Part shown: positions 23,943 to 60,938 of the stretch, piece by piece
How positions within the stretch are numbered: position 1 is the first letter of the stretch
Layout of the letters: every line of letters begins with the position of its first letter
Assembly: GCA_019309045.1 (NCBI GenBank)
Contig: JAFDGZ010000001.1
Coordinates: 62,001 to 126,000 of the forward strand
Length of the DNA: 64,000 nucleotides
Source: Deltaproteobacteria bacterium
GTDB taxonomy: Bacteria; Desulfobacterota; Syntrophobacteria; BM002
Reading direction: 5' to 3'
The notes under the pieces: model-generated
What the model was told of the DNA's origin: nothing
Databases searched by the model: none
What the model saw: only the letters and a program-made list of their open reading frames with translations
Program-made: the position numbers and the translations under genes

Positions 23943-24932
23943 TCAGCGAATCCCGGGCATTTCCAGGAGCTGCAATGCTTGCCGAGCAGCAGTGCGCACG
24001 TTTCTATCCTCATCCTCCAGCATCGCTTCAAGGGCTGAACGTGAACGGGGATCGCCAATTTTGCCCAAAGCTTCGCTAAGGTGCTGCCTGACAACTGCTT
24101 CTCTATCGGCAAGAGCGGCCATCAACGGCTCCACAGCTCGAGTGTCGCCAATATTGCCCAAGGCCTGGGCAGCGCGGCTGCGAATATTCCAGTCCTGGTC
24201 CCGCAAGGCAGTGAGCAGTGGCTCGACGGCAATTGGATTACGGAGCAGACCGAGCGTCTCGGCAGCGCTGGCGCGCACATGAGCTGCCTCGTCCTTGCGC
24301 TGCAGTACTGCCAGCAGGGGCGCCACTGCCCTGTCATCGCCTATCTTGCCCAAAGCTTCGGCTGCCTGTCTCCTGATGAGCGGCTCCTGGTCGTTGAGAG
24401 CCGCCAGCAGTGGCTCGACCGCCCTCGGGTCACCGATCTCACCAAGGGCTTTCGCTGCCTGACTTCGCACCAGAGGATCAGGGTCATCTAGAGCGTCCAT
24501 GAGAGAGTCGACTCCTGCAGCACCCAGGCCTCTGAGAATTTCCAAAGGCTGGTGGCCGAGATCATAGTGCTGGGGTAATTCATACTTCTCATCTGTGTAG
24601 CGGCGGACCTGGCGCTCACTCATTTGCAAACGCTCGGCTATTGCCGCCGGGCTGAGCCCCCGATGCTGAAGGTTCTTCACTCGCAGTAGTTCAGCCTCTT
24701 TTCTGGGCATTTGTATGTATCCCATTTCTTCCATACAGCGACTGACCTCGGTCGAGTCAGAAACCAGTCTGCGGCACTGTTCGAGGTCAGCGCGGCTTGC
24801 AGCAGCAGAACCATCCTGACGATACCACACCTTGTCACCGACCGCCCGTTGCTCCCATGGGGGCAGACCGGCACAACTGACAAGAGCCAGGCATGCCACT
24901 GCCAGGATAATGTTACCCAGAAGTCTAATCAT
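23943..24932 (-). CDS. HEAT-repeat lipoprotein
   Basis: This encodes 329 residues; GGAG precedes the ATG at 24932. The N-terminus is a lipoprotein signal with lipobox L-V-S-C near residue 20. A domain of about 50 residues with two cysteines (EQCRRL and SRCMEEMGY) follows. Then comes a helix-turn-helix-like stretch, GLSPAAIAERLQMSERQVRRY, near 92-112. From about residue 135 there are six HEAT-like repeats of about 31 residues, with the consensus V-R-x-x-A-A-x-A-L-G-x-I-G-D-x-R-A-V-E-P-L-L. It is probably membrane-anchored on the periplasmic side and acts as a scaffold. Its partner is unknown. Confidence 0.78.
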   Translation of the reverse strand: MIRLLGNIILAVACLALVSCAGLPPWEQRAVGDKVWYRQDGSAAASRADLEQCRRLVSDSTEVSRCMEEMGYIQMPRKEAELLRVKNLQHRGLSPAAIAERLQMSERQVRRYTDEKYELPQHYDLGHQPLEILRGLGAAGVDSLMDALDDPDPLVRSQAAKALGEIGDPRAVEPLLAALNDQEPLIRRQAAEALGKIGDDRAVAPLLAVLQRKDEAAHVRASAAETLGLLRNPIAVEPLLTALRDQDWNIRSRAAQALGNIGDTRAVEPLMAALADREAVVRQHLSEALGKIGDPRSRSALEAMLEDEDRNVRTAARQALQLLEMPGIR

Positions 24933-25187
24933 GGCCACTCCAACAGTAAAGAACCACAGAAAAAGGCCAGGCTAGCAAGTTCATCCGAGAATATGTGTCA
25001 CGACAGTGCCAGCATGTCAAGTGAGGTCTCTATATCGCCCCAGCCCAAGAGGCTACAACCTGCTGAGCAGTTACCAGCGAACCGCATTGTCTCGAGATCA
25101 TCGAGGCAAATTGCAAATGGCTGAGGCCTCCATTTCTGCACAAAAGCTAACCAACTATAATAATACAGCAAAAATGTGTTCAAGAGG

Positions 25188-25203
25188 TGGCACTGATCTT
25201 GCT
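25188..25203 (+). promoter_or_regulatory. sigma-54 promoter of the diguanylate cyclase gene
   Basis: TGGCAC-TGATC-TTGCT matches the sigma-54 consensus, with GG at 25189-25190 and GC at 25201-25202 ten bases apart. Transcription should begin near 25214, just before the AGGAG (25219-25223) of the ATG at 25231. This also argues that the long open frame upstream of 25231 is not translated. Confidence 0.75.
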
Positions 25204-25230
25204 AATTCTCTAGACACCAGGAGTTTTGAG

Positions 25231-26679
25231 ATGAATGCTGGGCACAATCCTACTGACCGCCAGAAACTTGAAAGCGACGGGTTCAAGATCCTGCTCGTAG
25301 AGCAGGACAAGGAAGCCGTTGAGCAGCTCAGAGGACTCCTCATCGCTAATGGTTATCAGGTGGCCCACCTCGATCCTAGTGCCATTGGTTCCACCAATGA
25401 TATGCCCACCAGTTACGATGCCATTATTTTCTCCGAGGATAGTGCTTGTCTCACCCTGAGCGATCTGCAGGAGGTTCTCGGCCTCGATCGTCGCAGTTCT
25501 TTTCTGATACTGCTCGGCGGCAGTTCTACAGTAGAGCGAGCAGTGGATGCCATGCTCGAGGGCGCCCATGCCTATCTGACCAAGCCAGTATGTGGCAAGA
25601 GACTGCTGGATGTGTTGAAAAAAGGATTCGAAAATCAGAAAATTTTTCATGATATCATGCAGATGGCCACTGAAGTCCAGGAAGTGAACCGCCAGCTCGA
25701 GCAACACAGAAAGAATTTGCTCGAGGAAAAGAAGCAGCTAGAAAGAAAGACGGAACAGCTCCACCTGCTCTATGATCTCAGTCTCACAGTGAATGCCTCC
25801 CTCGACAGAGAAGAAATTGTCCATAAAGTATTTCATCACCTGCACCAGGTCTTCCAGGTGGACTGGTGCCGCGTGTGTTTGTTCAATAGCCATGAGAACC
25901 AGGATTGGGAATGCGTGGTGGGCAGCCGTGCCTCTGGACTGTCAGCAGTGCAGTCCCTACCCCTTTCAGCCCAGGGCAAATCCATTGGCGTCATGGAGTT
26001 GACAACCACTGCAGCAATTAGCAAAGAACATCGCCAATTGCTTGACACTATTGCCCTGCAGGTCGGTATGGCCCTCCAAAATGCCAACAGTCATGAACTG
26101 GTCAAACATCTTGCTGACCAGGATCCGCTGACCCGTCTGGGTAATCGGCGGTCTTTCGAACGTCAATTGCAGAGGGAGTTCAGGAGATACCGTCGCTACC
26201 GCCAGGATATGTCTCTCATCCTCTGCGACCTGGATCGCTTCAAGGAAATCAACGATCGCTTTGGACATCAAACTGGCGACAAGGTGCTTCGTCATCTGGG
26301 GCGGGTGATGCTCGAAAGCTTCCGTGACTGCGACTATGTGGCCCGCTGGGGTGGAGACGAATTCGCTGTCATTCTCCCCAACACTGCCAAAGAACAGGCC
26401 TTGCTCTCAGCTGAACGACTGCGTCAGCGTTTACGACAACCTGTGGAAAATGATGGCCGAGCCCTCATACAGGTGAGTGCCAGCTTTGGCATTGCCGACA
26501 CAAAATCATGTGCCCTCAATAAGGCACACGACCTGCTTGCCCTGGCAGATCAGGCCCTTTATCAGGGTAAGAAGGCAGGGGGAGACGAAATACGACTGTG
26601 CCAGGAAAACCAGCAACCTCCGTCTGACTCTTGTCCGCTGTGGATTGAGGCAGGAACACCTGCGACCATTGCCTGGTAG
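25231..26679 (+). CDS. diguanylate cyclase (pseudo-receiver, GAF, GGDEF)
   Basis: This encodes 482 residues. Residues about 18-135 fold as a response-regulator receiver, but Ser68 replaces the phospho-acceptor Asp and the acidic pocket is changed, while Y-L-T-K-P keeps the conserved Lys. A coiled coil (about 150-190) leads to a GAF-like domain (about 195-315) and a GGDEF domain (about 320-475). The active site is intact, R-W-G-G-D-E-F, and an inhibitory RxxD site (R-D-C-D) lies five residues before it. It should make c-di-GMP with product inhibition. The ATG follows AGGAG and a consensus sigma-54 promoter. Confidence 0.9.
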   Translation: MNAGHNPTDRQKLESDGFKILLVEQDKEAVEQLRGLLIANGYQVAHLDPSAIGSTNDMPTSYDAIIFSEDSACLTLSDLQEVLGLDRRSSFLILLGGSSTVERAVDAMLEGAHAYLTKPVCGKRLLDVLKKGFENQKIFHDIMQMATEVQEVNRQLEQHRKNLLEEKKQLERKTEQLHLLYDLSLTVNASLDREEIVHKVFHHLHQVFQVDWCRVCLFNSHENQDWECVVGSRASGLSAVQSLPLSAQGKSIGVMELTTTAAISKEHRQLLDTIALQVGMALQNANSHELVKHLADQDPLTRLGNRRSFERQLQREFRRYRRYRQDMSLILCDLDRFKEINDRFGHQTGDKVLRHLGRVMLESFRDCDYVARWGGDEFAVILPNTAKEQALLSAERLRQRLRQPVENDGRALIQVSASFGIADTKSCALNKAHDLLALADQALYQGKKAGGDEIRLCQENQQPPSDSCPLWIEAGTPATIAW

Positions 26680-26701: not shown

Positions 26702-28576
26702 TTATTGGGCCTTGTGATTCTCCCGGAGCCCTTGTCGCAATTGCAATGCGTCAACCACAATGCTCTGCACCTTCGTCAATTCAAAAGGCTTGCAAAGCAA
26801 GAGATCCACGCCCTTCTCCTTCATTTCATTTTCGTTCAGTTCATTTCCCCAACCCGTGATCAGCACCACCGGGATGGAGGGTGTGCGCCGCTTGATGGCC
26901 GCAGCCACCTCCCAGCCGCTGAGATCCGGCATACCTAGATCGGTGAGCACAGCATCAAAACTCTGTTTCTCCAACTCTGCCAGTCCTTCCCTTCCCCCGG
27001 CCACACTAACCACCTCATGGCCCAACTGCTCGATCATAGTTGCCAATACATCTCGGACGAGATTGTCGTCGTCAATGAGGAGAATTCGAGCTTTCTGCAT
27101 CCCCTGGCTATCGCCTTTCTTTTCCTTGTCGGCTGCTGACTCTTGACTGAGCGGCAGACGGATTGTAAAGGTTGTCCCTTTTCCCAGTTCACTTTCCACG
27201 GCGATCTCCCCCTCGTGCCTGCGGATTATCCCATAGGCCACACTGAGGCCGAGGCCAGAATTGCCAGGGCCTTTGCTGGTGAAAAACGGGTCGAAGATGC
27301 GATCCACAGTCTCACTGCTCATACCTGTACCACTGTCCTCAATGCGCACGAAACCCCGGGACTCAGTCGTCCAGGTGGAAACAGTGATCCTGCCTCCAGA
27401 TGGCATGGCATCCAGGGCATTGAGGATAATGTTGGTGAAGGCCTCACGCAGCTCTGAACCGTCACCAGCCACCGGGTTTACATCATTGAGACGTGTGACA
27501 AATTCAACCTTCCTGCCACTCTTCTGCAACTGGTCTTTCCAGACCGGCTTGGTGATTGTCAGCACGTCGCTGATCAAATCTCTGAGATTCAGGGGCACGA
27601 ATTCCCTGGTGCGTCTGGTGCGACTGAACTCTTGAATGCGCTTCACAGTGGCTGCCCCGTCTCGGGCAGCCATTTCCACAGCCTTCAACTTCTCCCTCTG
27701 TTCGGGAGCGCTGATATCGGCAAGAAGCAGTTGAGTGTAGCCAATGATGGCAGCCAGACTATTATTGAAATCATGGGCTACGCCAGAAGCCATCTGGCCG
27801 AGCGCTCTCAGTTTTTCGGTCTGGGCCATACGGGATTTGGTCTGCTGCAGTTTCTTGTGGGTCCTCTCCAGGTACTCTGTCCGCTGCCTCACCTTTTCTT
27901 CCAGCTCACTATTGATTTCTTGCAGCTCCTTGTACATCCGGGCATGGTCGAGCTGTACAGCGATCTGGTTGGCCACGATGATCATGCCGTGCAGATCTCT
28001 CCCCTGAAAGGAATTCTTCTCTTTGCAGCTCAGATTGAGAACCCCAACTGTTTCACCTCGTACCAGCAGAGGCAGACAGAGAAGAGAACCGATCTCCACG
28101 CTCTGGCGCGGATCTGTCAAGAATCTTTCATCTTTTTCCACATCGTTTATGAGAATGGGGGTTGCTTCCTCCAGTACTTTGCCAGCTACTCCTTCACCCT
28201 TCTTGAGAGACACGGTGGCAAAGTGGTTGCCCTTATCATGAGAGTCCGCATTGCTGCTGTCCACTCCTCTGGCCACTTTTAGCTTGAGTTCTCTTTTCTC
28301 CGGGTCGAAAAGCATTATGGAGGCATTGTCTACTGGCAGTTCATCCAGGAGGATGTCGAGGACAGCGCCACAGGTCTTCTCTACATCTTCGTCCAGCGCC
28401 ACAGAGTCAGTGAGCCTCCGGGCTACAGAAAGTTCTCGCAAGCGCTGGAGTTGGATGCGACCACTATCATGCAATACTGCCCGGACTGCCTTGAGGTCTA
28501 CCCTGGTCTGGTGCTGGGATGGCTTGTCTTCCAACATTTCTTGTCCGCTTGCATCTTCTGCAGATGGGCTAACCAA
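26702..28576 (-). CDS. hybrid sensor histidine kinase (GAF, HisKA, HATPase, receiver)
   Basis: This encodes 624 residues with a TTG start; GGGAG lies nine bases upstream. Residues about 45-215 form a GAF sensor domain. A coiled coil leads to the HisKA phosphoacceptor GVAHDFNNSLAAIIG near 272, an HATPase domain with N-I-I-L-N-A-L-D-A-M near 390 and D-S-G-T-G-M, and a C-terminal receiver with the phospho-acceptor in LTDLGMPDLSG near 550. There is no membrane segment, so it is a soluble sensor. It lies 64 bp after the HDOD gene and probably shares its FliA-dependent transcript. The partner regulator is not identifiable. Confidence 0.92.
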   Translation of the reverse strand: MVSPSAEDASGQEMLEDKPSQHQTRVDLKAVRAVLHDSGRIQLQRLRELSVARRLTDSVALDEDVEKTCGAVLDILLDELPVDNASIMLFDPEKRELKLKVARGVDSSNADSHDKGNHFATVSLKKGEGVAGKVLEEATPILINDVEKDERFLTDPRQSVEIGSLLCLPLLVRGETVGVLNLSCKEKNSFQGRDLHGMIIVANQIAVQLDHARMYKELQEINSELEEKVRQRTEYLERTHKKLQQTKSRMAQTEKLRALGQMASGVAHDFNNSLAAIIGYTQLLLADISAPEQREKLKAVEMAARDGAATVKRIQEFSRTRRTREFVPLNLRDLISDVLTITKPVWKDQLQKSGRKVEFVTRLNDVNPVAGDGSELREAFTNIILNALDAMPSGGRITVSTWTTESRGFVRIEDSGTGMSSETVDRIFDPFFTSKGPGNSGLGLSVAYGIIRRHEGEIAVESELGKGTTFTIRLPLSQESAADKEKKGDSQGMQKARILLIDDDNLVRDVLATMIEQLGHEVVSVAGGREGLAELEKQSFDAVLTDLGMPDLSGWEVAAAIKRRTPSIPVVLITGWGNELNENEMKEKGVDLLLCKPFELTKVQSIVVDALQLRQGLRENHKAQ

Positions 28577-33541: not shown

Positions 33542-33556
33542 AGGCATGGGTATTGC
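33542..33556 (+). promoter_or_regulatory. possible sigma-54 promoter of the PilZ gene
   Basis: AGGCATGGGTATTGC has GG and GC ten bases apart and a TTGCA -12 element. The -24 element departs from TGGCAC at two positions. The predicted transcript start is about 75 bases before the PilZ gene start at 33643. Confidence 0.4.
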
Positions 33557-33642
33557 AAAAATAGATACTGAGGCACACCTCCAACCGCAACTCGGTATAT
33601 GGCTATTGTGGTCCAAGGGGAGACCTCAGACAAGAGAATTTT

Positions 33643-34602
33643 ATGAAATCATATCTGATTATAATAGGCAGCACTCTCCTTTGTCTGATCTTGTTCTTCC
33701 GGCGCCAGAGCCGCCGCCAGCCTCGGAAACTCTGTCAGGTAGACAGTGAATGCCAAATTAGAACAATCCTGGAACAGTCAATCATTGAGAGACAGGCTTA
33801 CGAAATAGTCGTAGAACTGCAGGAAACCTCTTCATCAATGACTGCAGTTCCCATGGAATTGACCGAAAAGAACACTTTGCTGGTCGAGCTCCTGGACTAT
33901 GGCAGTGAATTGACAAAGTTGCGCCAGTTGCCCCTGACTGTCTACTTTCGGGTGGGACATGGGCAAGGACAACAGTTTTTCTATTTCAATACGTCAGCAA
34001 GCGGCATCATCCAGAAGCAGATTGGCCGAGTGAAACATCGGCTTCTCAGTATTGCAATTCCTTCTTGTCTACACCAGGGCCAGAAACGGCGTCACTACAG
34101 ACTGCAACCTGCCAAGGCAGCGCGTGTATGCGTTTCTCTCAGAGCGACAGGGCCAGCTCACCGCAGGCGCCAGCGCCTGATGCTGCAGAATGCTCCCGTG
34201 GATGATATCAGCGCCGGCGGTCTCAGCTTCACCAGCAGAGATCTTCCTGCAATCAGCGAACTTGGCAAAGGCGACGTCATGGTCCTGGAAGTATCATTCC
34301 AGCCGTGCTGTTTCGAAAGTCGGCAAGCAAGGGTGCCAGCAACCATCTTTTTCCAGGCGGAGCTCCTGGGCAACAGGCTGATAAAGCAGGGCAGGCGGCG
34401 TTTGCGTTTCCGCTTTCTCAGCCGACAGGTTGATGCGGGCTATGGCAAGTCCTATTTCTCAGATGACCTGGACAGGCTGAACGAAGATCTGTCACGCTGG
34501 ATTCATGAATGTCAAAGGATGATCATCAAGCAACGGCGGCTGGCAGAAAACCTTGAGCATGGTCAAGAGCATCGTCGCTCGGTATCTCAACGCTCGCCCT
34601 GA
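33643..34602 (+). CDS. membrane-anchored PilZ protein, flagellar brake (YcgR) type
   Basis: This encodes 319 residues. One hydrophobic segment (about residues 4-20) is followed by a cytoplasmic part with a YcgR-N-like barrel (about 65-135) and a PilZ domain (about 145-275). The c-di-GMP motifs are intact: R-R-H-Y-R (RxxxR) near 150 and D-I-S-A-G-G (DxSxxG) near 188. In YcgR-type proteins, c-di-GMP binding slows the flagellar motor; that role is inferred from the layout and the neighbouring flagellar genes. The start has a weak ribosome binding site. It converges with fliW. Confidence 0.82.
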   Translation: MKSYLIIIGSTLLCLILFFRRQSRRQPRKLCQVDSECQIRTILEQSIIERQAYEIVVELQETSSSMTAVPMELTEKNTLLVELLDYGSELTKLRQLPLTVYFRVGHGQGQQFFYFNTSASGIIQKQIGRVKHRLLSIAIPSCLHQGQKRRHYRLQPAKAARVCVSLRATGPAHRRRQRLMLQNAPVDDISAGGLSFTSRDLPAISELGKGDVMVLEVSFQPCCFESRQARVPATIFFQAELLGNRLIKQGRRRLRFRFLSRQVDAGYGKSYFSDDLDRLNEDLSRWIHECQRMIIKQRRLAENLEHGQEHRRSVSQRSP

Positions 34603-44312: not shown

Positions 44313-44336
44313 GGTTGCCATAAGCATTAGGCAACC
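44313..44336. repeat. inverted repeat at the flgF promoter
   Basis: GGTTGCC (44313-44319) and GGCAACC (44330-44336) are perfect inverted copies with a 10-base spacer. The right arm overlaps the -12 element of the sigma-54-type promoter, and the rest falls around the expected transcript start, so it may act as an operator or as a leader hairpin. Confidence 0.5.
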
Positions 44337-44345
44337 TTTATACCA
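44331..44345 (-). promoter_or_regulatory. sigma-54-type promoter of the flgF operon
   Basis: On the minus strand TGGTAT-AAAGG-TTGC fits the sigma-54 pattern TGGYAY-N5-TTGC, with GG (44344-44343) and GC (44332-44331) ten bases apart. Transcription should start near 44319, about 33 bases before the flgF GTG. Confidence 0.6.
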
Positions 44346-44410
44346 ATGAGGCTGGATCGACTGATTTTCATTCAACTATTTAATTTTGCTGGATTACTTA
44401 ATTTTTCATT

Positions 44411-48517: not shown

Positions 48518-49426
48518 CTAGAGATTTATCAGCCGACGCCAGAAAAATTTTATGTTGCCGCTCACCTGCGGCTGTTTGCCGGAGCTCCAGACAGCCTTCG
48601 CCAGCTTGAGGAAACTCTTGCTGGCCGGCGCTTCGGGATACAGCTGAAGCACCGGCTGCTGACGGCAAACTGCTGCTGGGACATGCTCATCAAAGGGTAT
48701 CCACCCCAGATAATCAAGGGAAGGTCCCCCCAAGAATCTTATGGCCACTGTACTCAGCTGGCGATATACCATCTCAGCCTCGTCTTCCTTCTCAACCCCG
48801 TTGACCAGCACTTTGAATTCTGTCTCCCGATAGCGGGTGTACAGCACTTTGATCAGAGCGTAGGCATCAGTGAGCGATGTTGGTTCACTGTTGGCAATAA
48901 CCACTTTCTCCTGGGCAGCCATGTTGAAATACATGACGTTGGCAGAAATGCCCGCACCAGTGTCTATTATGAGGGCATCGAAACACTCTTCCAGAGTGTC
49001 CAACTCATCCAGGAGGCTGAGGCGCTCGCTGTCGCTGAGATGGGTGAGCTCCACCACGCCTGAGGTGGCGGGCAATATGGTAATTCCTGCTGGCCCGGGC
49101 ACCAGGATCTCCTCGAGCTTCCTTTTACCTCTGAGCACATCTTGCATGGTATAGGGAGGATCCAGTCCCAGGAGAACATCAATGTTGCCGAGGCCCAGGT
49201 CAGCATCGAGTACTAGCACCTTTTTGCCTCGCTGCTGCAGGGCAATGGCCAGGTTGGCCACCACATTGGTCTTGCCAACGCCCCCCTTACCACTAGTGAC
49301 CGAGATTACCCGCACCGGTGTAGTGGCACACTGCAGTTGAATTTCTTGTTGCTCAGCCTGCAGACAGTCTGCTGCCGGCCTGTTATGATTGGCCATCATT
49401 TTCCTGAGCCCGATTGCCTGATCCAT
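48518..49426 (-). CDS. flhG: flagellar number regulator FlhG (MinD-like ATPase)
   Basis: This encodes 302 residues. The start at M-D-Q-A-I-G-L-R-K-M-M (49426) matches the usual FlhG N-terminus, which activates FlhF, and follows AAGGA; it overlaps the end of flhF by 44 bases. The deviant Walker A is SGKGGVGKTN near 50, and LDADLGLGNIDVLLG and I-D-T-G-A-G-I-S follow. FlhG limits the number of flagella. A C-terminal amphipathic end is present for membrane binding. Confidence 0.94.
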   Translation of the reverse strand: MDQAIGLRKMMANHNRPAADCLQAEQQEIQLQCATTPVRVISVTSGKGGVGKTNVVANLAIALQQRGKKVLVLDADLGLGNIDVLLGLDPPYTMQDVLRGKRKLEEILVPGPAGITILPATSGVVELTHLSDSERLSLLDELDTLEECFDALIIDTGAGISANVMYFNMAAQEKVVIANSEPTSLTDAYALIKVLYTRYRETEFKVLVNGVEKEDEAEMVYRQLSTVAIRFLGGPSLDYLGWIPFDEHVPAAVCRQQPVLQLYPEAPASKSFLKLAKAVWSSGKQPQVSGNIKFFWRRLINL

Positions 49427-50585
49427 ATGTCCAATCCTTGTCAGCCATTTCCGTTTCAACAGCGTTCATGCTCGCCACAAGGGCGCAAATGCTGCGTCCT
49501 CTGGCGACAAATGCTGCCAGCCGCTCTCTGGTCGCTGCCTCGATGTCCTCGGGAACCCGCTGGCCGGTTGTAAAAAAAGATAGAGGACGGGGCTCAGTGA
49601 GCAGAAAATTCATCAGTTCAGCTCCATCACAGGCCTCATCCAGTTTTGTGATGAGATATCCCTTGTAGCCGAATCTTTCAAAGGCGGCAGCTGCCAGCAG
49701 CAGGTCACGGTATGCCGTGTTAGCACTGAGCACGAGCTGGTGCTCTACAGGCCAGGGCAGCCGGAAGATCTCTGCCAATTCAGCCAGATCGTCCTGATTT
49801 GCTGGACTGCGGCCGGTGGTGTCTATAAAGATCACGTCTTTGTCCAGGTGTCGTTTGAGCACCCGTCGCAGTTGGACAGCATTGGCTGCTGTTTCCATGG
49901 GAAGCTTCATTATCCGCGCATAGGCATACATCTGGTCGATTGCCCCAATGCGGTACTGATCCACGGTGACCAGTGCCACCCGTTTGCCCTGTTCAAAGGC
50001 TGTCCTGGCGGCGAGCTTTGCCATAGTGGTTGTCTTGCCAACCCCTGTGGGACCTATAAACGAAATTATTTGCTGGCCGTCCTCAGAAAAGGATGGTGGC
50101 GCCATGTCAATCTTGTCCAAAATATGATCCAGTACCTGGCGGACGCAATCCGAGCGGCTGCCTTTGCCATCTCGAGGCTGCTGCTGGTGTTCTGTCAGGG
50201 AAGAGCGAATAATGCCGTCTTTAATGCCCAGCTCTCTGTACACGGTGTATAGCTGTCCCAGATGATTGTCAAAAAATGCAGCACCGGCAAGCATTTGCTC
50301 CATCCGGCTGATCCAGAGCAGATCACGCAATTCCTCCAACTGTTGGTCGAGCCGCTGACACCACTGCGGCGACGGCCTCACCTGGTCCTGACCACCGGCC
50401 TCACCTGAGCTCTCCTCGAGCATGTCCAGATCAACTGCAGCGGTGACCTCGATCAGTTGCCCGCCAGCAGAAGAATTATTTTGCAGATTTCTGCTGCCGA
50501 GGACAACCGCACCAGGCCCCAGCTCAGATCTGATCTTGCGCAAGGCTTCATGAGAATTTCTGGCAACGAAACGTTTAATCCGCAT
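49383..50585 (-). CDS. flhF: flagellar biosynthesis GTPase FlhF
   Basis: This encodes 400 residues. It opens with M-R-I-K-R-F-V-A-R-N-S-H-E-A-L-R-K-I-R-S-E-L-G-P, has an N/helical domain, and an SRP-type GTPase domain from about residue 165: GPTGVGKTTTMAKLAA, VDQYRIGAIDQ, DTTGR and TKLDEACDGAELM. FlhF places flagella at the cell pole. It overlaps the end of flhA by 11 bases and the start of flhG by 44, so all three are coupled. Confidence 0.97.
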   Translation of the reverse strand: MRIKRFVARNSHEALRKIRSELGPGAVVLGSRNLQNNSSAGGQLIEVTAAVDLDMLEESSGEAGGQDQVRPSPQWCQRLDQQLEELRDLLWISRMEQMLAGAAFFDNHLGQLYTVYRELGIKDGIIRSSLTEHQQQPRDGKGSRSDCVRQVLDHILDKIDMAPPSFSEDGQQIISFIGPTGVGKTTTMAKLAARTAFEQGKRVALVTVDQYRIGAIDQMYAYARIMKLPMETAANAVQLRRVLKRHLDKDVIFIDTTGRSPANQDDLAELAEIFRLPWPVEHQLVLSANTAYRDLLLAAAAFERFGYKGYLITKLDEACDGAELMNFLLTEPRPLSFFTTGQRVPEDIEAATRERLAAFVARGRSICALVASMNAVETEMADKDWTYGSGNRAQENDGQS

Positions 50586-58454: not shown

Positions 58455-59198
58455 TTAATTTCGGTAGAGAAAAACCTCGATTCGGCGATTCCTCTGGCGA
58501 TTCGCCTGGCTGGTGTTCGGCACCAGAGGTCTACTGGAGCCGAAGCCACCCACTCTGAACCTGTTGGCGCTCAAATCTTTCACCTCGGTGAAGTATTTCA
58601 CCACCTCGATTGCCCTGGCTAGAGAGAGCTGCCAGTTGTCTTTAAAGCGCTTCGAGTGCACGGGAATGTCGTCAGTGTGCCCTTCCACTGAGACCCGAAA
58701 CCGGCTCCTGCGAATAATCTCAGCAAGCCTGTCGAGCAATGGCATCACCTCTGGGTCCAGCTTGGTGCCCCCCGCCCGAAACAGGATTCTGTCCTTGAAG
58801 CGTATTCTCAAGCCCCGGCGACTCTTTTTGACCTCAACACCATCGCTGACAAGCTGCTCGTATTTGCTCCACTTGTCCGGCTTGTACTCGAAGAGCAATT
58901 TCTTCAGACCCTCGTCATCGAGACTTCCTTCCAGGGGAATGGCGAATCTGAGCTCCTTGAGCATACGGCCTACTGCCTCCACATCCGATTTCTCCGCAAA
59001 GGAGAGAGGTCCGGTTGCCCCTTTGAAAATGGTAAAAAACCTCTGCAGCAAGTTGGAGTCCATGGAGGACATGGAGAGCAATAAGACAAAAAAGGTCAGC
59101 AGCAGGGTCATGAGGTCAGAAAAGGTCATCATCCAGCTATTCGGATCCATGCCGCTAGATTCTGACTCTCTTCTCCTTGCCACTTTCTCTCCTGGCAT
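58455..59198 (-). CDS. motB: MotB-like stator protein, copy 1
   Basis: This encodes 247 residues. One membrane helix contains the ion-carrying Asp (W-M-M-T-F-S-D-L-M-T-L-L-L). The periplasmic OmpA-like peptidoglycan-binding domain has VSVEGHTDDIPVHS near 165 and a final RNRRIEVFLYRN. It starts five bases after the stop of the other MotB-like gene. The two share the layout but are only moderately similar. With motA they would form one or two stator types. Confidence 0.93.
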   Translation of the reverse strand: MPGEKVARRRESESSGMDPNSWMMTFSDLMTLLLTFFVLLLSMSSMDSNLLQRFFTIFKGATGPLSFAEKSDVEAVGRMLKELRFAIPLEGSLDDEGLKKLLFEYKPDKWSKYEQLVSDGVEVKKSRRGLRIRFKDRILFRAGGTKLDPEVMPLLDRLAEIIRRSRFRVSVEGHTDDIPVHSKRFKDNWQLSLARAIEVVKYFTEVKDLSANRFRVGGFGSSRPLVPNTSQANRQRNRRIEVFLYRN

Positions 59199-59203
59199 TT
59201 CCC

Positions 59204-59983
59204 CTAGGGATTGAACATCCGAAACAGGAATCCCTTGAACTCATACAACAGAGGCCTGCGAAGCTTGTCTTCCATGTGCTCGCCCACTTGTTTGTCTCTC
59301 TCGTCCAGAATGATATTCACCCGGCGATTCTTGGCCCGGTTCAAGGCGGTATTGTTGGGTGCAATGGGTCGGTGGCTGCCGTAGCCAAAGGCCGAAAGAC
59401 GCCTGGCTGCCACCTTTCCCTCTTTGACCATAAAGCGCAACACAGCCAGGGCTCGCAAGCCGCTGAGCTGCCAGTCACTCATTATGCCGGGGGAGGCTCT
59501 GATCATGTCATCTGTGTGCCCTTCAATACGAATAGGATAGTCGTTCAAATTGAGATAATGAGCCAGCTCCAGCAGAAATGAACGAGCTTCTGGTTTGAGA
59601 TGGTAGTCCCCAGGTTCGAAGAGCACCGCGTCCTTGATACTTATGATCCGCGGCAATCCCTTGCCTGCCACACTCAAGCCGCTGGCAATCTTGCTGCGCA
59701 GAAGCTGTTCAATCAGTTCCGGCTCCTCTATGGCCTTCTCAATAGGCGCAGATGGGGGGAGCATGCTGCGTGGGGCGCTCTCAATGGCCGACAACCCTCC
59801 TCCCAGGATGCCCAGACTGCCAATGAAAGAATTGAGGGCCAGGCGCTGTCTTTCCTCATCAATAATAGCGATGGAATTCAACAGAACGAAAAATGTCATC
59901 AACAGGGTGACCAGATCGGTAAAAGTGGTCATCCATCCCATGGGGTCGAGACCACTGGCATCAGATTTTTTCTTTTTCCTCAC
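59204..59983 (-). CDS. MotB-like stator protein, copy 2
   Basis: This encodes 259 residues with a GTG start. The helix near 14-38 again has the ion-carrying Asp (T-T-F-T-D-L-V-T-L-L-M). The OmpA-like domain has IRIEGHTDDMIRASPGI near 153 and N-R-A-K-N-R-R-V-N-I-I. It extends about 28 residues past the domain. It lies between motA and motB copy 1. Tandem MotB-type genes behind one MotA-type gene suggest a mixed B-subunit pair, but two alternative stators cannot be ruled out. Confidence 0.92.
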   Translation of the reverse strand: MRKKKKSDASGLDPMGWMTTFTDLVTLLMTFFVLLNSIAIIDEERQRLALNSFIGSLGILGGGLSAIESAPRSMLPPSAPIEKAIEEPELIEQLLRSKIASGLSVAGKGLPRIISIKDAVLFEPGDYHLKPEARSFLLELAHYLNLNDYPIRIEGHTDDMIRASPGIMSDWQLSGLRALAVLRFMVKEGKVAARRLSAFGYGSHRPIAPNNTALNRAKNRRVNIILDERDKQVGEHMEDKLRRPLLYEFKGFLFRMFNP

Positions 59984-60872: not shown

Positions 60873-60923
60873 AGATCTCTCTCCAGATTCTTCGGGTAAA
60901 ACAATGGCTTGCCAGTTGACTAA

Positions 60924-60938
60924 GCAACCTCTGTGCCA
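60924..60938 (-). promoter_or_regulatory. sigma-54 promoter of the motA-fliL-fliM operon
   Basis: On the minus strand TGGCAC-AGAGG-TTGC is a perfect match to the sigma-54 -24/-12 core, with GG and GC ten bases apart. Transcription should start near 60912, about 40 bases before the motA ATG. A sigma-54 activator such as FlrC/FleR type would be needed; its gene is not in the window. Confidence 0.78.

Follow-up and report, generated by a model that had tools for sequence, protein, structure and literature searches.

The diguanylate cyclase gene at 25231-26679 is probably read from a sigma-54 promoter, and appears to belong to a wider set of sigma-54-linked genes that would serve surface or biofilm behaviour in this family, whether flagella are present or not. 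The gene lies in the window, the whole stretch of 64,000 nucleotides that was analysed. When c-di-GMP genes are under sigma-54, this control can readily be taken for an extension of flagellar regulation. In this family, two cyclases have kept predicted sigma-54 promoters in relatives without flagellar markers; the link to c-di-GMP can therefore be told apart from the link to flagella, and the promoters form a well-defined set for testing. The case also carries a warning: flagellar co-regulation does not follow from the use of one sigma factor and a location only loosely near the flagellar genes.

The -24/-12 site and the start of the cyclase gene

The gene and the elements upstream of it are the following.

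25115-25135: possible activator site (speculative), dyad AAATGG-N9-CCATTT, its centre about 89 nt upstream of the predicted transcript start
25188-25203, + strand: predicted sigma-54 -24/-12 promoter TGGCAC-TGATC-TTGCT (TGGCACTGATCTTGCT), exact consensus, kept upstream of the ortholog
25214, + strand: predicted transcript start with a 17-nt leader, about 12 nt past the -12 GC, placed by standard sigma-54 geometry
25220-25224, + strand: ribosome binding site AGGAG, read from the sequence, with ATG at 25231
25231-26679, + strand: diguanylate cyclase of 482 aa (Pfam, NCBIfam, alignments and a low-confidence structure model)

The first-pass annotation had placed TGGCAC-N5-TTGCT just upstream of AGGAG and an ATG, and the coordinates above confirm this arrangement. 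The site fits TGGCAC-N5-TTGCW, with a distance of ten bases between GG and GC. The window's genome encodes rpoN and, with about 38 matches to the sigma-54 activator domain, of which at least one is weak, the activators that a sigma-54 promoter calls for. Exact matches to TGGCACNNNNNTTGCW occur twice in the window, at 25188-25203 and upstream of motA. Across the 3.9 Mb genome there are 25 exact matches versus 2 for the reversed motif, which served as control. Among 100,000 simulated 200-bp upstream regions (first-order Markov), 22 carried an exact match, a chance of about 2 in 10,000. The ortholog's site is likewise rare by chance, at 22-25 per 100,000 simulated regions for each of the two genes.

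A single ortholog of the cyclase (51% identity) was found, in another genus of the family (Deltaproteobacteria bacterium isolate CTSoil_058, G003), by a search that covered 60 related genomes and a class-wide set of 56, together with a scan of the genome collection. The ortholog carries TGGCATTTCCCTTGCT in its upstream region, at a distance of 56 nt from the GTG start. Comparison of upstream regions in related genomes had been proposed as a check, and in this one ortholog the -24/-12 site is indeed kept. Promoter conservation is thus a matter of two sequences from two genomes, the ortholog's being 75% complete, and direct alignment of the two upstream regions failed to place the two sigma-54 sites together. 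The open frame of the ortholog can be extended by no more than about 14 codons above the GTG, to a point just past the predicted transcript start. Because the ortholog keeps the site in the same place and its frame ends there, the predicted promoter and the start codon are well supported. Two earlier claims are strengthened accordingly by the ortholog: that a sigma-54 promoter drives the cyclase, and that the gene starts at 25231, since the ortholog's frame is closed upstream of the predicted transcript start. GTG 25006, which opens a longer frame, was rejected as the start codon: it lies before the promoter, and in the ortholog the frame stops short of that point.

Two other readings of the site have to be weighed. 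It is scarcely credible that the -24/-12 match is a functionless chance occurrence. When up to two mismatches are allowed, matches in the window are no commoner than in shuffles, but the genome-wide excess of exact matches over the control is about twelvefold, and the ortholog carries an exact site in the same position. Alternatively, a sigma-70 type promoter could drive the cyclase, with the -24/-12 match unused or acting as a second promoter. A perfect TATAAT hexamer does lie at 25156-25161, 26 nt upstream of the -24/-12 site. However, TTTCTG, which occupies the -35 position if the spacing is 17 nt, fits at 2 of 6 bases, and the promoter scan gave only a 9/12 match, in a neighbouring register. 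Furthermore, the ortholog's upstream region shows the -24/-12 site and not the TATAAT hexamer, which makes a sigma-70 promoter very unlikely here.

The preferred sigma-54 reading implies a simple transcription unit. The divergent neighbour encodes a HEAT-repeat protein (23943-24938, - strand) and the convergent neighbour a hybrid kinase (26702-28576, - strand); therefore, the cyclase would be transcribed from 25188-25203 as a single-gene unit. Sigma-54 polymerase would remain at the promoter as a closed complex, to be opened with ATP by an enhancer-binding activator, so that a signal acting on transcription would result in more c-di-GMP synthesis. The dyad AAATGG-N9-CCATTT is a possible binding site for such an activator; about one of its kind is expected by chance, and its sequence differs from the ortholog's upstream region. 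No common activator site beyond chance was detected between the upstream regions of the cyclase and its ortholog, or between the cyclase promoter and the other 24 exact sites.

Domain organisation of the cyclase

The protein comprises four regions.

Residues ~19-125: degenerate receiver, from the strand-helix order in the low-confidence model
Residues ~122-187: long helix
Residues ~193-284: GAF-like region, a partial Pfam match to the end of the GAF domain
Residues 295-451: GGDEF domain, full-length PF00990 (E 1.8e-45), with the signature RWGGDEF

With an intact GGDEF signature and a complete domain, the protein has the sequence features of an active diguanylate cyclase. An RxxD inhibitory site (I-site) lies five residues before GGDEF (RDCD-YVARW-GGDEF), and reads RGCD in the ortholog. 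The receiver is less easily recognised: no Pfam match to a receiver domain was found in the cyclase, and NCBIfam response-regulator models weakly match residues 16-206. At the end of strand 3, the position of the phospho-acceptor Asp is taken by Ser68, and by Ala in the ortholog (DAIIFSED / HVILFAED). Ser68 was placed by hand from the DxxxxD strand-3 pattern and the predicted strand 64-67, as the automatic receiver alignment misplaced this region. From the structure model, built on two sequences and with a mean pLDDT of 53.5, no more than the order of the receiver strands was taken.

Response-regulator cyclases of the PleD/WspR type carry a receiver and a GGDEF domain in one protein. The window's cyclase is similar in having both, but differs in the replacement of the phospho-acceptor Asp (Ser here, Ala in the ortholog) and in the GAF region between the two domains. 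Lacking the phospho-acceptor Asp, it does not classify as a PleD-type phosphorylatable response regulator, and is therefore probably not controlled by phosphorylation. Its control would more probably lie in the amount made, the GAF region and product inhibition.

Relation to the flagellar genes

Flagellar genes occupy the window from about 35.6 kb to its end and continue into flanking sequence with FliG, FliF, FlgB and an activator. Two sites within the window concern their promoters.

44331-44346, - strand: weak sigma-54-like site upstream of flgF (TGGTATAAAGGTTGCC), the sole flgF candidate
60923-60938, - strand: predicted sigma-54 promoter of motA (TGGCACAGAGGTTGCT), perfect match

The first-pass annotation had described the cyclase as next to the flagellar cluster, and had assigned sigma-54-type promoters to both motA and flgF. 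The first description is loose: about 8-9 kb and five genes (HK-RR, HDOD, HK-RR, HDOD-GGDEF and PilZ-like) separate the cyclase from the fliW/csrA/flgL end. The second stands for motA, whereas the flgF site is weak, scoring 10.3 bits versus a maximum of 18.3 on an approximate matrix. The site at flgB (TGGTATTCCTTTTGCA) is also weaker than that of motA.

These genes raise the most serious alternative, namely that a cluster-encoded flagellar activator (FlbD/FlgR-like) switches on the cyclase promoter along with those of motA and of the hook and rod genes; c-di-GMP would then be made while the flagellum is being built. The cluster does encode an activator, at C1:136041-136538, which is nearest to FlbD, AtoC and NtrC models, all below cut-offs, and sigma-54 sites are found at motA, flgB and flgF. 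The region upstream of the motA site is among those more similar to the cyclase's, a resemblance that is not significant after many comparisons. Nevertheless, the cyclase is separate from the flagellar operons, many other activators are encoded in the window's genome, and the ortholog has the same promoter in a genome (75% complete) without matches to FlhA, FliG or FlgI. On balance, joint control with the flagellar genes is unlikely. Sharing sigma-54 with motA does not entail sharing an activator, because activator domains are so numerous in this genome and exact sites also precede unrelated genes.

The scarcity of flagellar markers extends beyond the ortholog's genome. The other relatives tested have neither FlhA nor FliG, and FlgI was detected in 1 of 13 family genomes, the window's own. 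Relatives with genomes more complete than the ortholog's likewise lack flagellar markers. A promoter belonging to a flagellar sigma-54 regulon should occur only together with flagellar genes, which is not the pattern seen for the ortholog. Since the ortholog keeps its site in a genome without flagellar markers, the promoter does not appear to be tied to a flagellar regulon; as predicted from sequence, sigma-54 control of the cyclase exists outside any such regulon. The proposed co-induction with the flagellar genes consequently finds no support, either in the ortholog's genome or in the other 11 family genomes, which are without FlgI. Control by a flagellar activator in the window's genome alone is possible. 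The cyclase promoter probably serves a general surface or attachment programme rather than the flagellar gene cascade.

The flagellum of the window's genome could be either a unique retention or a gain within the family of 13. Two adjacent MotB-type genes lie downstream of motA (58455-59983, - strand). Beside fliW/csrA, a protein without a Pfam match (33643-34602, + strand) has a C-terminal region that looks PilZ-like by eye (KRRHYR, DISAGGLSF), and a sigma-54-like site, AGGCATGGGTATTGCA, lies upstream of it at 33542-33557. This protein is possibly a flagellar brake.

Sigma-54 sites and c-di-GMP genes in the family

Five GGDEF matches were found in the window's genome, and two of the five genes have an exact sigma-54 site (p ~5e-4, assuming 3,500 genes). 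The other gene with such a site encodes a second cyclase.

C32:48689-49786 (G000; 48656-49786 with its site): second cyclase P0002, GAF-GGDEF, exact sigma-54 site

Close orthologs of P0002 occur in nine other family genomes and all nine have the sigma-54 site, giving 10 of 13 genomes in all. The site reads TGGCAYGAAGGTTGCT in eight of these orthologs and TGGCACGAACATTGCT in the ninth, which shares its genome with the ortholog of the window's cyclase, and the spacer GAAGG is itself conserved across most of the family's orthologs. The P0002 paralogs examined are without a sigma-54 site.

Genes for PilZ domains show a similar association. Among the matches listed, a PilZ domain lies within 400 bp downstream of approximately 11 sigma-54 sites in four genomes; the corresponding controls within 1,000 bp are approximately 4 when the opposite strand is counted and 6 when the same strand is counted upstream. 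PilZ genes recur behind sigma-54 sites on contigs C26, C48 and C113 of G000, on C12, C15 and C19 of G003, and on several contigs of G001. Other exact sites precede the gene of a response-regulator activator and, as named by eye from sequence, those of an apparent ammonium transporter and a histone-like protein. Exact sites before such varied genes suggest that sigma-54 is a broad regulator in the window's genome.

We infer from this distribution that the cyclase promoter would join several PilZ receptor genes and the second GAF-GGDEF gene in a family sigma-54 set. It would work with or without flagella, with surface or biofilm behaviour as the most likely output. A bolder proposal, which we advance tentatively and would not favour over its negation, is that sigma-54 is the dedicated controller of a c-di-GMP module of two cyclases and several PilZ receptors. 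Such a module may have arisen or persisted without flagella, and the flagellated member would have kept it as a layer beside its flagellar sigma-54 genes.

Sigma-54-linked cyclase genes are already known; the retention of this link by two cyclases, in a family mostly without flagellar markers, is less usual. According to Francke et al. 2011 (PMC3162934), the Escherichia coli cyclase genes yeaJ and yhjK have predicted sigma-54 promoters, and they were listed as new likely regulon members; sigma-54 itself is linked there to flagella, to exopolysaccharide and to the cell exterior. The window's cyclase is likewise a GGDEF-protein gene with a predicted sigma-54 promoter. Unlike in that listing, its site also stands upstream of an ortholog from another genus, in a family mostly without flagellar markers. 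In Pseudomonas, direct ChIP-seq targets of the sigma-54 activator FleQ include genes for GGDEF proteins as well as motility genes, and FleQ binds the gcbA promoter (PMC6120874). Sigma-54 is thus linked to GGDEF-protein genes in both cases but, compared from sequence alone, the promoter described here is present in a relative without flagellar markers, whereas FleQ is a flagellar master regulator. In Burkholderia cenocepacia, RpoN together with c-di-GMP controls biofilm formation (PMC5552954). There, c-di-GMP acts through the effector BerB, while sigma-54 here would drive c-di-GMP synthesis.

Beyond the c-di-GMP genes, TGGCACCCTAATTGCT is the identical sigma-54 core of two paralogous, apparently secreted proteins (L016 and L020, on contigs C70 and C127 of G000), one of which has a carboxypeptidase-regulatory-like domain.
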